In this document: in pieces, positions 41,683-47,414 of the stretch
How positions within the stretch are numbered: position 1 is the stretch's first letter
How the letters are laid out: each line of letters opens with the position of its first letter
NCBI RefSeq assembly: GCF_000685155.1
Contig: NZ_JMIY01000001.1
Location: forward strand, 542,402-602,720
DNA: 60,319 nt
Direction: 5' to 3'
Origin: Candidatus Methanoperedens nitratireducens
GTDB lineage: Archaea; Halobacteriota; Methanosarcinia; Methanosarcinales; Methanoperedenaceae
The notes under the pieces: model-generated
What the model was told of the DNA's origin: nothing
The model's database searches: none
The model's input: the letters and a program-made list of their open reading frames with translations, nothing else
Program-made: the position numbers and the translations under genes

Positions 41683-42534
41683 TCAGATATACAGCCCTCC
41701 GTTCATATCTATAACCTGGCCTGTTATGTAATCAGCATCCTCTGAGGCAAGATACGCCACTGCCCCTGCAACCTCTGACGGCTTACCAAGCCTTCCAACA
41801 GGTATTTTCTCCAGGATTTTTTTCACTACTTCATCAGGAACCGATCTCACCATATCGGTTTCTATAAACCCTGGCGCTATTGCATTTACAGTTATACCCT
41901 TTCCAGCGAATTCCTTTGCCAGCGTCTGGGTGAGGCCTATTATTCCTGCCTTTGAAGCTGCATAGTTCGCCTGTCCGAAATTGCCCATTCTCCCGATAAC
42001 AGAGGATATATTCACGATCCTGCCATACTTCCTCTCAAGCATACCATCTATAACCGCTTTAGTGCAGTGGAAGGTGCCATCCAGGTTCACAGATAGTACT
42101 TCTGACCACATCTGTGGAGTCATTTTGATAAAAGATTTATCCCTGGTTATTCCTGCATTATTAACCAGTATATCGATTTTACCAAACTGCCTGATCACCT
42201 CATCCCGCATCCTGTACACCTGCTCAATATCACTTACGTTCGCCTGACAGATGAAGGAATGCCTGCCCATAGATCCTATCAGCTTTGATACTTCCTTTGC
42301 ATGCTCTTTAGTATCCATCTGATCTATCATCTGGGATATTTTAATAATCTCCTCTGTCGTGCCTATCTGGTCTATCAGCTTTGATACCTCCTCAGCATGC
42401 TCTTTAGTGTACTGGTAATTAATGGCAACATCTGCGCCCTCCTCTGCCAGTCTTAAAGCAATCGCCCTTCCGATTCCCCTTGAGCCCCCTGTAACCAGGG
42501 CGACTTTACCTTCCAAATGTGCTCTCTTCCCCAT
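41683..42534 (-). CDS. phaB: Acetoacetyl-CoA reductase/3-oxoacyl reductase (PhaB/FabG type) with internal duplication
   Basis: Short-chain dehydrogenase that reduces acetoacetyl-CoA to 3-hydroxybutyryl-CoA for PHA synthesis. Seen: the NAD(P) site TGGSRGIG (about 15-22), NNAG, and the Ser-Tyr-Lys triad in NISSVIGRMGNFGQANYAASKAG, with the C-terminal IDMNGGLYI. From ATG 42534 (GAGGT upstream) the protein is 283 residues, about 35 longer than usual. The excess comes from an internal repeat: KEHAEEVSKLIDQIG recurs as KEHAKEVSKLIGSMG 32 residues later, matching a 96-base offset in the DNA. This lies in a surface helix after the third strand. It is the last gene of the PHA operon. Confidence 0.88.
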   Translation of the reverse strand: MGKRAHLEGKVALVTGGSRGIGRAIALRLAEEGADVAINYQYTKEHAEEVSKLIDQIGTTEEIIKISQMIDQMDTKEHAKEVSKLIGSMGRHSFICQANVSDIEQVYRMRDEVIRQFGKIDILVNNAGITRDKSFIKMTPQMWSEVLSVNLDGTFHCTKAVIDGMLERKYGRIVNISSVIGRMGNFGQANYAASKAGIIGLTQTLAKEFAGKGITVNAIAPGFIETDMVRSVPDEVVKKILEKIPVGRLGKPSEVAGAVAYLASEDADYITGQVIDMNGGLYI

Positions 42535-42539
42535 ACTAC

Positions 42540-43718
42540 CTACCTCTTTACTACCACGGCAATACCCATACCCCCGCCAATGCACATGGTTGCAAGGCCG
42601 TACGTACCGTCCCTTCTTCTTAACTCATACAGAAGTGTGGCCAGTATCCTTGAACCTGTGGCCCCTATTGGGTGTCCGAGGGCGATAGAGCCGCCGTTAA
42701 CATTAGCTATATTTACATCCCAGCCCAGTTCCCTATCGACCGCAATTGACTGGGCTGCAAATGCCTCATTCTCCTCTACCAGATCGATATCATCCATGGT
42801 TAAACCCGCGCGCTTAAGGGCTACTCTGGTTGCACAAACAGGCCCCATACCCATTATCTCAGGAGGTATGCCACAGTACCCGTAGCCTATGATAGTTGCC
42901 ATGGGTTCAAGTCCTTTTTCTTTTGCTTTCTGTTCAGACATCAAAAGAACAGCAGCAGATCCATCATTGACACCTGATGAATTGCCAGCAGTTACTGTAC
43001 CGTTCTTTTTAAATGCTGGTTTCAGTCTTGATAGAATACCTGCAGTCGTGCCGAACCTGGGAAACTCATCTGTATCAAAGACTATCGGTTCGCCCTTTGG
43101 CTGTGGAACTGTTACCGGAACAATCTCCTCTTTGAACTTACCTGCCTTGATCGCAGCTTCTGCTTTACTCTGGCTTTTTGCAGAGAATTCATCCTGCTCT
43201 TCCCTGGAAATGCTGTACCTCTCTGCTATATTCTCTGCCGTTATTCCCATATGGACATTCTTGAAGATATCCCATAACCCATCGTATACCATCGTGTCTG
43301 TAACTTCATCATTCCCCATCCTTATTCCCCAGCGGGCTTTCTTGAGCGCATACACTGATGTTGACATGGACTCTACCCCGCCAGCAAGGACAATATCCTG
43401 ATCACCAAGCATTATGGACTGGGCACCAAGGACAACAGATTTCAAACCAGAGCCGCATACTTTGTTCACAGCATAGGCAGGTACCTTATCCGGGATCCCT
43501 GCCCAGATCGAGGATTGTCTTGCTACATTCATGCCCTGGCCGCCTGCGATCACATTCCCCATGATGACTTCATCCACTTCACCAGGATCAAGGTCTACCC
43601 GTTTCAGGGCATCCTTCAATACCACTGAACCGAGCTGTCCAGCCGGCATGTCTTTAAGAGTTCCTCCAAATTTTCCTACTGCGGTTCTTGTTGCAGATAC
43701 AATAACTACTTTATTCAT
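42540..43718 (-). CDS. phaA: Acetyl-CoA C-acetyltransferase (thiolase)
   Basis: Condenses two acetyl-CoA into acetoacetyl-CoA, the first step of PHB synthesis. The 392-residue enzyme has all catalytic residues of the biosynthetic thiolases: nucleophile C88 (NKVCGSGLKSV), H349 (GGSIALGHPIGATG) and C379 (TMCIGGGMG). Length equals that of PhaA. It lies between two reductases of the phaB type in the same orientation, within the operon that runs from 47414 to 41683. Confidence 0.94.
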   Translation of the reverse strand: MNKVVIVSATRTAVGKFGGTLKDMPAGQLGSVVLKDALKRVDLDPGEVDEVIMGNVIAGGQGMNVARQSSIWAGIPDKVPAYAVNKVCGSGLKSVVLGAQSIMLGDQDIVLAGGVESMSTSVYALKKARWGIRMGNDEVTDTMVYDGLWDIFKNVHMGITAENIAERYSISREEQDEFSAKSQSKAEAAIKAGKFKEEIVPVTVPQPKGEPIVFDTDEFPRFGTTAGILSRLKPAFKKNGTVTAGNSSGVNDGSAAVLLMSEQKAKEKGLEPMATIIGYGYCGIPPEIMGMGPVCATRVALKRAGLTMDDIDLVEENEAFAAQSIAVDRELGWDVNIANVNGGSIALGHPIGATGSRILATLLYELRRRDGTYGLATMCIGGGMGIAVVVKR

Positions 43719-43775: not shown

Positions 43776-44516
43776 TTATATGACCAGTCCACCATCCACG
43801 CCGAGCACTGCCCCATTGACAAACCCCGCCTCATCCGAGGCAAGATACAGGTATGCATACGCAACATCAATAGGTTCTCCCAGCCTGCGGAGGGGTGTTT
43901 TTTCAATCGTCATTTTAATAAATTTTTCAGGCACCTTTCCGGTCATAGGAGTCTCTACAAATCCAGGGGCTACTGCATTGGTCCTTATGCCTTTCCTTCC
44001 AAGTTCTTTTGCCAGGGTCTTTGTCAGTCCAATCAACCCGGCCTTGGCTGAGGTATAATTTACCTGCCCGATATTGCCATATATTCCTGTAATAGAGGAC
44101 GCATTGATAATTACGCCACTCCCCTGATTGATCATGATATCAACTACTGCCTGGATGCAATTGAAAGCCCCTTTAAGATCTACATTGATAACGCTGTCCC
44201 ACTGCTTCTCAGTCATTTTTGTGACCAGAGCATCCTGGTTAATACCTGCATTATTTATCAGAATATCAATTCTCCCGAATCTATTGATAACCTCATTAAC
44301 AAATCTCCTCAGGTCTTCTCTACTTGTGACATCCCCTCTAACACAGATTGCCCTTCCTCCACTCTCATTTATTTCATTGCAAACTTTTTCTATCGTCTCC
44401 AGTGTCCTTCCAATTGTAGCTATACTCGCTCCTTCCCTGGCGAACAGCAGTGCAGTCTCTTTGCCAATACCGCTTCCTGCCCCTGTAATGATTGCAACTT
44501 TGTCTTTAAGTCTTAT
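43776..44516 (-). CDS. phaB: Acetoacetyl-CoA reductase (PhaB/FabG type), apparently started at AUA
   Basis: A 246-residue short-chain dehydrogenase of exactly the usual FabG/PhaB length. The frame reads (ATA)RLKDKVAIITGAGSGIGKE at the N-terminus, then INNAGINQD, the SSITGIYGNIGQVNYTSAKAG active-site segment and VDGGLVI at the end. No ATG, GTG or TTG occurs between the upstream in-frame stop and an internal ATG at 44216, which would remove the whole cofactor site. The ATA at 44514-44516 lies where the family's initiator Met is expected, 6 bases after a GGGGGAG site, and overlaps the phaC stop as ATAA. There is no frameshift: the reading frame is continuous. This is the second reductase of the operon. 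Confidence 0.88.
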   Translation of the reverse strand: MRLKDKVAIITGAGSGIGKETALLFAREGASIATIGRTLETIEKVCNEINESGGRAICVRGDVTSREDLRRFVNEVINRFGRIDILINNAGINQDALVTKMTEKQWDSVINVDLKGAFNCIQAVVDIMINQGSGVIINASSITGIYGNIGQVNYTSAKAGLIGLTKTLAKELGRKGIRTNAVAPGFVETPMTGKVPEKFIKMTIEKTPLRRLGEPIDVAYAYLYLASDEAGFVNGAVLGVDGGLVI

Positions 44517-45688
44517 CCTGTTCTCCCCCTTGATTTTCCCCTTGCTCTTTTACCTTTCTCCTGTGCTCCTTCAGGAAGAGATCTGGGTTTTAGCCACTCT
44601 GCGATCCTGGGAACGACCTCTTTTTGGGATCTGGAGCCAACAAAGATACCTATGTGTCCGGTCGGGAAGACAAGCGTCTCTTTGTCCTCACTCGATACAG
44701 CATCAGCCAGCGGTAGACTTGCCTCATTTGGAACCAGATGATCGGTTTCGGCCATGACATTAAGCAGTGGCATGGTTATCTTTCTCAGATCGATCCTCTT
44801 CCCATCGAGCATCATCTCGTTCTTGATGAGGAGGTTCTTCTGATATAGATCCTTCATGAACTGCCTGTATGCTTCTCCTGCCTGTCCAGGGCTATCGAAT
44901 ATCCATTTCTCCATTCTAAGAAAATTCTTGATGATCTCTTCATTCCTGCGCTGACATTCTTTATCATCAGTTTTGCATTCAAGTCGCTCAAACATGCCTA
45001 CATATTTGTCAATCAGAAGCCTGAACGGGTCTGTTAACAGGAACCCTATGTTCAACAGGTCCCCCGGCACTATGCCATAGAAATCCACGACCCTGTCCAC
45101 ATCAAGTGCTTTTGCCCAGATATGAAGAAGTCCTTTATCGGTATCAAAGTTTATAGGTGTCACTAAAGTGACCAGGTTCTTCACCTTTTCAGGATGCAGT
45201 GTGGCGTACATAACAGAAATTGTCCCTCCCTGGCATACGCCAAAGAGCGTAACCTTATCAGATCCTGACAGTTCTCTGATCTTGTCCACGGCATTGTTTA
45301 CGTAGCCCTCCACATAATCGTTAAGCGTGAGGTATCGATCAGAGCCTGATGGGTATCCCCAGTCAATAATATAGACATCAAGACCCTCATCAAGCAGCTT
45401 CCTTACAACGCTTTTCTCAGGCTGCAGGTCAAGGATATAGTAGCGGTTCACACATGCATATATTATGAATACCGGAACTGGAGATGTTCTCTCTACCGTG
45501 GGGATATAATGCATAAGTTTCATCTTATCTTCTGTGTAGACTACCTCATGAGGCGTTGTTGCCACGGTGATCTCCTCGGGATGCTCCAGCAATATCTCCA
45601 TTCCTTTTACGAATCTTCTGGTATCTTCTATTAAGTCAGTTGCGTACGTGTACGCAGGTGTTACAGGTGCAGGCGCAGGTGTGCTCAT
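44513..45688 (-). CDS. phaC: Class III poly(3-hydroxyalkanoate) synthase subunit PhaC
   Basis: Polymerises 3-hydroxyacyl-CoA into PHA granules. The 391-residue product has the alpha/beta-hydrolase fold with the lipase-like box GVCQGG containing nucleophile C152, the Asp D316 (AETDHLVPN) and His H345 (PTGHIGIFV), corresponding to C149, D302 and H331 of the Allochromatium class III enzyme. The length (about 355-390) fits class III, which requires PhaE; phaE lies directly upstream with a 4-base overlap. The C-terminus has an extra basic tail (KGKRARGKSRGR). Confidence 0.96.
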   Translation of the reverse strand: MSTPAPAPVTPAYTYATDLIEDTRRFVKGMEILLEHPEEITVATTPHEVVYTEDKMKLMHYIPTVERTSPVPVFIIYACVNRYYILDLQPEKSVVRKLLDEGLDVYIIDWGYPSGSDRYLTLNDYVEGYVNNAVDKIRELSGSDKVTLFGVCQGGTISVMYATLHPEKVKNLVTLVTPINFDTDKGLLHIWAKALDVDRVVDFYGIVPGDLLNIGFLLTDPFRLLIDKYVGMFERLECKTDDKECQRRNEEIIKNFLRMEKWIFDSPGQAGEAYRQFMKDLYQKNLLIKNEMMLDGKRIDLRKITMPLLNVMAETDHLVPNEASLPLADAVSSEDKETLVFPTGHIGIFVGSRSQKEVVPRIAEWLKPRSLPEGAQEKGKRARGKSRGRTG

Positions 45689-46344
45689 TTCCCTCCCCCC
45701 CCGGTTCTCCTGATTAAATCATCCACTGCTCTCCTGAGGGATTGCAGCTCCTGGTTTATACTATCGATATCAGCCTTTGTAGGAAGATCCCTTGTACTCT
45801 CTGAGAGCTTTTTGACCTGGCTGGCTAAATCCTTCTCTGTCTTCTTAAGAGAATACACTTCATAATTTATATCATCGATCTCACTTTTTGTAGGGATAAA
45901 GTTCAATGGCTTAAGATAATTCTCCTCAAGCATTTCCCGATTATTTTTCATGAATTCCATGTAATACGATATGAACGTTCCCATATCTGAAGAGAAATGA
46001 CTTGTTTTAAAGAATTCTTTGAACGTTTCACTGTATGTTTCAATCCAGATACTATAAAAATCTTTATATTGATCGGGAATGATCTCTCCCTTCGCCCCTA
46101 CCAGCATCTTCTCACCCATCCTGCGCATGGCCTCCATGAACACATTCTGGAAATTGATGACAGATTCCATCCATGCTGAATAGAGGTTAACAGAGACAGA
46201 GGCATTCTTCGCCAGTTTTTCGATTCTCTCACGTGCAGGCCCCACGGCAGGTATCTCAAGTAACCTGCCAGTAGTAGCTTCGTATGTCTTTAACCACAGA
46301 TCAAAAACTTCATGTGTGTATTCAAAGCTTGATCTATCATCCAT
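45685..46344 (-). CDS. phaE: Class III PHA synthase subunit PhaE
   Basis: Partner of PhaC. The product (219 residues from the ATG at 46344; 233 from a GTG at 46386) is helical and rich in aromatic and acidic residues, with FEYTHEVFDLWLKTYEATTGR near the N-terminus and YKDFYSIWIETYSETFKEFF in the middle, both PhaE-like. Its last 60 residues form a coiled coil (SLKKTEKDLASQVKKL, then SINQELQSLRRAVDDLI). I favour 46344 because it lies just after the stop of the previous gene, whereas 46386 would overlap that gene by 40 bases; neither has a strong ribosome-binding site. The stop overlaps the phaC start by 4 bases. Confidence 0.88.
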   Translation of the reverse strand: MDDRSSFEYTHEVFDLWLKTYEATTGRLLEIPAVGPARERIEKLAKNASVSVNLYSAWMESVINFQNVFMEAMRRMGEKMLVGAKGEIIPDQYKDFYSIWIETYSETFKEFFKTSHFSSDMGTFISYYMEFMKNNREMLEENYLKPLNFIPTKSEIDDINYEVYSLKKTEKDLASQVKKLSESTRDLPTKADIDSINQELQSLRRAVDDLIRRTGGGGK

Positions 46345-46346
46345 AT

Positions 46347-47414
46347 CTAGACCCGGCTTGCTGGACTGGGGGGTGGCCTCATCCACATGTTTGCCATGGT
46401 GGCAAACGTATCTGCATATATCCTGGCTGAATTCTTTACAGGCTCCATCATCTGTCTCATCGGACCCATCATGGGCATATTCTTGAAGAAATCATCAAAA
46501 GCCCTCTCGTACATCTTCGTCCATGTACTGTAGAATTCTCGAACCGCCTCTGGATCAGCGGTGCGCCTTGATAGATCCATAGTCCTCTCTGACATCTTCT
46601 CAAGTGCAGTCATCCAGGATTTATACATGTTCAGATAGATATCTGTACTCTGCAAGAAATTATCAAGCATCTCCCTTGAGGGTCTCATGGCCTGAACATT
46701 AAATAACCCGCTGTAGGTCTCCCTGTACATATCCATCCATTGATTATAAAATTCCCTGTAGGCCTCAGGGCTTGCGCCTCCTCTTGAGATCTCTGTCATT
46801 CGCCCGGTAAGCCTCATCATGGAATCAACCATCGGCCAGTATATATTTCTATAAGTATCTCTCCAGAGTTTTGATACCTGCGCGAAATTTCTTAAGTAGA
46901 TATTCGGCATGCCTGTGTAACTCTCAAATATCTCCCTTGTACTTTCCCTGGCTGGCATTGCAAGGAAATCATCGAGTATTTTTCCATATGACCTGGTCCA
47001 CGTCTCGTAGGACATCCTGTATTTCTCAGGATCAGGCTCACCCATGAGCATCTCCTGGGTCTTTTTGGTGTTCTCCTCAAGCTCGTTAGCCCATGATCTG
47101 AAGAGGTTACCCAGATCCTCTGCACTGGCCACGAATCTCTCAAGCGCCTCTCTATCGGGTACCCTGGTCGGGATCGGATATAATCTACCAAAGGTATTCT
47201 GGTACATCCTCATCCATTCATCATAAAATTCCCTGTACCCCTCAGGTTTAGTCTCTTTTGGGAGTTCAGCAGCCTTCTCAATCAGTTCCCCTGTAGATTC
47301 AATCCACGGTTTATACAGATTTACATATGTATCCTCCCACATTTTTGCAACAGTTGTATAGCTATCAGCCCATACATCAAAAATACCTTTTCTCACTTCG
47401 CCTGTTTTCATCAT
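46347..47414 (-). CDS. PhaE-like/phasin-like protein with four internal repeats
   Basis: First gene of the PHA operon, 355 residues. The protein is helical, without a signal or membrane helix, and rich in Met, Tyr, Trp and Glu. A motif of the form YREFYxxWxxMYxxxFxxLF recurs about every 85-100 residues: YREFYDEWMRMYQNTFGRLY, then YRMSYETWTRSYGKILDDFL, YREFYNQWMDMYRETYSGLF and VREFYSTWTKMYERAFDDFF. The same signature occurs once or twice in PhaE, so this looks like a multiplied PhaE/phasin relative. It probably coats granules or supports PhaC-PhaE (inference). An AGGAGGAG site lies 9 bases before the ATG. Confidence 0.75.
   Translation of the reverse strand: MMKTGEVRKGIFDVWADSYTTVAKMWEDTYVNLYKPWIESTGELIEKAAELPKETKPEGYREFYDEWMRMYQNTFGRLYPIPTRVPDREALERFVASAEDLGNLFRSWANELEENTKKTQEMLMGEPDPEKYRMSYETWTRSYGKILDDFLAMPARESTREIFESYTGMPNIYLRNFAQVSKLWRDTYRNIYWPMVDSMMRLTGRMTEISRGGASPEAYREFYNQWMDMYRETYSGLFNVQAMRPSREMLDNFLQSTDIYLNMYKSWMTALEKMSERTMDLSRRTADPEAVREFYSTWTKMYERAFDDFFKNMPMMGPMRQMMEPVKNSARIYADTFATMANMWMRPPPSPASRV

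Follow-up and report, generated by a model that had tools for sequence, protein, structure and literature searches.

Translation of phaB2, a gene for a FabG/PhaB-type short-chain dehydrogenase/reductase in a Candidatus Methanoperedens species, very likely begins at an AUA codon, and we read it as a working acetoacetyl-CoA/3-oxoacyl reductase gene of a Methanoperedens PHA operon; initiation at AUA is inferred here, and translation has not been measured. The larger finding, which is inferred from conserved start columns and likewise made without measurement of translation, is that AUA, AUU and AUC starts (hereafter AUH) recur and are conserved in Methanoperedens. A preliminary description, made from the sequence alone, had handled phaB2 as an isolated case, and this did not hold, as it turned out to be one of several AUA/AUU/AUC starts in the genus. 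The gene lies in a stretch of 60,319 nucleotides, referred to as the window, which sits in a 3.2-Mb genome that is 99.8% complete.

Proposed start site and reading frame of phaB2

On the minus strand, the phaC frame ends with ...AGG GGG AGA ACA GGA TAA and the phaB2 frame begins with ATA AGA CTT AAA GAC AAA GTT, so that the ATA and the phaC stop codon share bases as ATAA (Table 1). The preliminary description had placed this ATA exactly at the family start and in overlap with the phaC stop, had noted GGGGGAG 6 bases ahead of it and had given a length of 246 residues from it, all of which held. Its statement that no ATG, GTG or TTG occurs before residue 147 failed in the number: the first such codon in frame is the ATG of residue 101, from which 146 aa remain. 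A product made from that ATG would lack both TGxxxGIG (here TGAGSGIG) and NNAG. Above the ATA the phaB2 frame is open for just 11 codons, and the other AUH codon in this short stretch, an ATC 6 codons above the ATA, is AGC in the second species that carries the ATA (see below), therefore the ATA is the sole AUH codon common to both in the open stretch. Downstream, the next AUH codons are ATC/ATT at codons 9-10, within the first beta strand.

Table 1. Features of the phaB2 region, in window positions
Feature	Position	Strand	Evidence
Proposed phaB2 start codon ATA	44514..44516	-	sequence; same ATA in second species
phaB2, FabG/PhaB-type short-chain dehydrogenase/reductase, 246 aa from ATA	43776..44516	-	translation, profiles, structure matches
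phaC stop TAA, overlapping ATA (ATAA; ATGA in many relatives)	44513..44515	-	
First in-frame canonical start ATG, residue 101	44214..44216	-	ORF list
GGGGGAG, Shine-Dalgarno-like, 6 nt before ATA	44523..44529	-	predicted 16S pairing
G GGA AAA, possible -1 slippery heptamer in phaC frame	44534..44540	-	reading by eye
phaC, class III PHA synthase subunit PhaC, 391 aa	44513..45688	-	TIGR01836, above cut-off
PhaE-like subunit, 4-base overlap with phaC	45685..46386	-	ORF list, profiles
355-aa PhaE-like repeat protein	46347..47414	-	PF09712, weak
phaA, acetyl-CoA acetyltransferase, 392 aa	42540..43718	-	ORF list, profiles
phaB1, FabG/PhaB family with repeat-containing insertion	41683..42585	-	ORF list, profiles

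The protein itself points to the same position. The motif TGAGSGIG occupies residues 11-18, and the expectation of a cofactor motif near the N-terminus is met only with a start at or near the ATA; NNAG, SS and YTSAK are present in the translation and satisfy the expectation of a Ser-Tyr-Lys active site with NNAG. In profile searches the full frame matches FabG/SDR models over the full extent of the models, family profiles are matched from residues 1-6, and solved FabG structures align from residue 1 or 2. The 20 nt upstream of the ATA are predicted to pair with the genome's own 16S tail (GGAUCACCUCCU) at -9.8 kcal/mol, which ranks 13-14 among the 62 homologues considered below (median -8.3 kcal/mol).

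Taken as a candidate for a non-AUG (AUH) start, phaB2 has no canonical start able to yield the conserved protein, carries a near-cognate codon where relatives have AUG, and shows selection as protein on the region ahead of its first canonical start. The ATA is likely to be the initiating codon and is the best candidate for it, an inference made without protein or ribosome data. By inference too, the first residue would be methionine (protein MRLKDK...), the ATA being read by the initiator tRNA-Met.

Homologues and the inferred origin of the ATA codon

An alignment of related genomes, which the preliminary description had called for, comprised 62 distinct phaB2 homologues from the genus and its family. 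The start column holds ATG in 60/62 and ATA in 2/62, and the support for the AUA reading is limited in that just two species carry the codon. The second, isolate BE2012_43_12 of Candidatus Methanoperedens nitroreducens, comes from an African mine; its DNA is 94% identical over the region, it retains the whole operon, its ATA stands at the same place and its phaC again ends with TAA. By parsimony, since both species carry ATA, their ancestor had it as well. In about half of the 62 homologues the junction is an ATGA overlap, in which phaC stops at a TGA that begins with the second base of the start codon; this canonical form of the same overlap supports the earlier suggestion of coupled-start geometry. 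Because the ATGA overlap is common in relatives, a single G-to-A change (ATGA to ATAA) suffices to give AUA with the phaC stop kept, and we infer that the AUA arose in this way, AUG becoming AUA and UGA becoming UAA, with PhaC unchanged.

Selection on the N-terminal half

Between the window and BE2012_43_12, residues 1-100 of phaB2 show 18 synonymous and 0 nonsynonymous changes, and residues 101-246 show 15 synonymous and 9 nonsynonymous ones; the two parts differ (Fisher p=0.005). With about 76% of sites nonsynonymous, the absence of any nonsynonymous change among 18 would have a chance of about 1e-11 without selection. These counts lie before any standard start, therefore residues 1-100 are translated and selected; as both species and their ancestor have ATA, the part ahead of the standard starts has been under selection ever since. 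Overall dN/dS of phaB2 is 0.077, similar to or below that of its operon neighbours. The last 20 codons of phaC, an Arg/Lys-rich and fast-changing tail, have 4 nonsynonymous and 0 synonymous changes in the same comparison. A truncated or broken gene, which according to the preliminary description automated callers would report here, is thus rejected by strong purifying selection on the N-terminal half, and the proposal of AUA as the phaB2 start made in that description is supported, with initiation itself remaining an inference.

Alternative explanations

The main rival, which we consider very unlikely, is that a -1 frameshift at the G_GGA_AAA heptamer, close to where phaC ends, takes some ribosomes beyond the phaC stop and into the phaB2 frame, which would produce a PhaC-PhaB2 fusion and make the ATA an ordinary Ile codon. 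Under it, too, the N-terminal half would be translated, without AUA initiation. The heptamer is correctly phased within phaC, the phaB2 frame becomes open immediately upstream of it, and the heptamer is kept in the second ATA species and missing (as judged by eye) from the junctions of the ATG relatives inspected. However, the heptamer lies in the fast-changing Arg/Lys-rich tail, where A/G runs arise easily, the predicted downstream structure is weak (-4.6 kcal/mol over 70 nt), and a frameshift here would leave unexplained the AUH starts described below for truD, hxlA-rraA, cofH and the TrkA-N/DHH gene, none of which requires a gene upstream.

Initiation at another non-standard codon close to the ATA also seems very improbable. 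The window does offer the ATC 6 codons upstream and the ATC/ATT at codons 9-10, but the former is not conserved in the second species, the latter fall inside the first beta strand, and it is in the column of the ATA that 60 homologues have ATG. That phaB2 is decaying, or that the base is a sequencing error, can be all but excluded. ATG-started paralogues are present and the finding rests on a single base, yet the same ATA occurs in a second species whose genome was assembled separately, and the low overall dN/dS and the lack of nonsynonymous changes in residues 1-100 are not those of a pseudogene; on these grounds both pseudogene and sequencing error were ruled out. Translation from the AUA remains the preferred reading.

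Probable AUH starts in other Methanoperedens genes

A coding-signal scan was run over 1.57 Mb of the same genome on ORFs with at least 40 codons before the first standard start (n=1603); the upstream coding signal of phaB2 ranked 5th, and other well-known genes also surfaced. A Shine-Dalgarno-based scan of 1.97 Mb of the genome added more candidates, and homologues of the candidates were collected in the genus and their start columns tallied. In truD (PF01142; C1:690412-691737, + strand, in the source genome) the 26 Methanoperedens genomes have 14 AUU, 8 AUC, 3 AUA and 1 CUC, with zero AUG; the sister-genus genome G033 has AUC, and the start is ATG in 13/13 further genomes surveyed from the order and family. 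A gene for a TrkA-N/DHH phosphoesterase (C7:82979-84457, +) has 18 AUA, 5 AUC and 3 AUG (n=26) behind a near-invariant GGAGGC, with GGA at codon -4 in 25 genomes and GGC at codon -3 in 23, and in several genomes a stop codon lies just 5-6 codons upstream. The hexulose-6-phosphate synthase/RraA gene (hxlA-rraA, NF005442) shows 6 AUC, 3 AUA and 1 AUU (n=10), with GGTGAT ahead in 9. In cofH (TIGR03551), AUA follows GGTGGT in 8/8 in-register genomes, including the sister genus; in two more genomes this motif and the AUA both stand six codons further upstream, and an ATG lies nearby in the outgroup G034. For a DUF5611 protein the start is an ATT that coincides exactly with the first profile position, and the start of a patatin-like protein offers nothing but AUH codons in two species.

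Throughout these start columns A and U are nearly invariant and the third base varies, while the upstream neighbours are much more variable, which is the appearance expected of near-cognate starts. At some of the loci a standard start lies within a few codons, and an individual genome is not always conclusive by itself. A genome-wide count of Shine-Dalgarno sequences adjoining ATA gave a noisy signal without significant enrichment (11/152, p=0.16). We lean, if only slightly, towards a bolder reading, namely that the start rule is relaxed in Methanoperedens and at least one sister genus, AUA, AUU and AUC being regular and stable starts, some of them (truD) never AUG, possibly by way of a change in loop 1 of the initiation factor aIF1 from RRYGK to RKYKK.

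Two candidates were set aside. A ValRS gene on contig C2 was rejected as an ATT start, a plausible ATG being available 21 codons further on. An isopropylmalate-synthase-like ORF (C2:493125-494645, +) was not accepted as an AUH case, being ambiguous: close to its N-terminus the frame lacks a standard start, an ATG preceded by a good Shine-Dalgarno sequence stands one base out of frame, and a one-base indel would restore that ATG. Possible readings are an indel, a short leader ORF and a further AUA start.

Proposed mechanism

We propose that ribosomes finishing phaC would start at the overlapping AUA of phaB2, re-initiation after phaC being inferred, that GGGGGAG possibly recruits further ribosomes to it, and that the ordinary initiator tRNA-Met (CAU) would read AUA with a third-position mismatch. 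In Haloferax, termination-reinitiation coupling has been found to depend on an overlap or a very short distance between genes (PMC10666635). Having come from the ATGA overlap by one presumed substitution, the AUA may persist because Methanoperedens generally tolerates AUA/AUU/AUC starts (truD, the TrkA-N/DHH gene, hxlA-rraA, cofH). The yield is inferred to be lower than from AUG. In E. coli, output from an ATA start does not exceed about 1% of that from ATG (Hecht et al. 2017, quoted in PMC12864459), although an E. coli rpoS ATA mutant loses up to 5-fold, keeping a fifth or more of the protein (PMC12864459). Since the same genome has two phaB paralogues with ATG, a low yield of phaB2 could be tolerated.

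With respect to the cause, a special initiator tRNA was ruled out by the finding of an initiator with anticodon CAU, and the UAU anticodon was absent among the 30 tRNA loci examined (14 further tRNAs were left out). A changed anti-Shine-Dalgarno sequence was also ruled out, that of the genome being normal. The basic loop 1 of aIF1 reads RKYKK in four Methanoperedens genomes, RKYRK in G033 and RRYGK in the genome G032 and six outgroups; truD starts with ATG in G032 and these six outgroups and with AUH in G033 and the four Methanoperedens genomes. In Pyrococcus abyssi, residues R31, Y32 and K34 of aIF1 loop 1 have been shown to be important when the factor binds the 30S or 30S:mRNA complex (PMC6237735). 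It is possible that the altered loop causes the AUH starts, but this is an untested idea only, and the correlation with truD is weak because it represents one evolutionary event. The aIF1 gene was ruled out as having an unusual start of its own, as it starts with ATG.

Relation to known systems

In a review of archaeal initiation the start codons listed are AUG, GUG and UUG alone (PMC7531240), and we found no report of AUA/AUU starts in archaea or of unusual Methanoperedens starts in the open-access literature searched. E. coli infC (and pcnB) is known to start with AUU. Like phaB2, these are functional genes with a near-cognate AUH start that differs from AUG in the third base only; they are, however, bacterial and IF3-regulated, whereas the present case is archaeal, involves AUA and extends to several unrelated genes in one genus. 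The ATG>ATA mutant of rpoS in E. coli O104:H4 (PMC12864459) shares with phaB2 an ATA start that still yields protein, but it is a laboratory mutation, while in phaB2 the ATA has been retained in two species, under purifying selection. Archaeal ATGA overlaps with termination-reinitiation (PMC10666635) have the same 4-base stop/start overlap and differ in that here the start is AUA and the stop UAA (ATAA); in that study non-canonical ATT is mentioned only as a possible explanation of odd overlaps.

Standard gene finders would shorten proteins with AUH starts. If our reading is true, many Methanoperedens annotations would contain truncated or missing genes, with AUH starts conserved in core genes, and the genus would provide a natural system for studying the part that aIF1 and Shine-Dalgarno pairing play in start-codon fidelity, and for asking if expression is tuned by weak starts.

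The phaB2 protein and its operon

The phaB2 protein does not meet the cut-off of TIGR01829 (acetoacetyl-CoA reductase PhaB; 232 bits vs 302) and narrowly misses that of TIGR01830 (FabG; 289 vs 298), therefore PhaB is an operon-based name. The operon resembles the class III PHA synthase operon phaEC with phaA/phaB in its PhaC, PhaE-like, PhaA and two PhaB/FabG proteins; it differs in being archaeal and in having an extra PhaE-like repeat protein. This 355-aa protein, whose gene overlaps that of the PhaE-like subunit, contains several REFYxxWxxMY repeats and has zero NCBIfam matches. In phaB1, a segment of about 50 residues that contains an internal repeat (TKEHAEEVSKLI / TKEHAKEVSKLI) is inserted into the N-terminal half; this insertion is kept in the second ATA species, and a related one is present in a second operon on contig C4.
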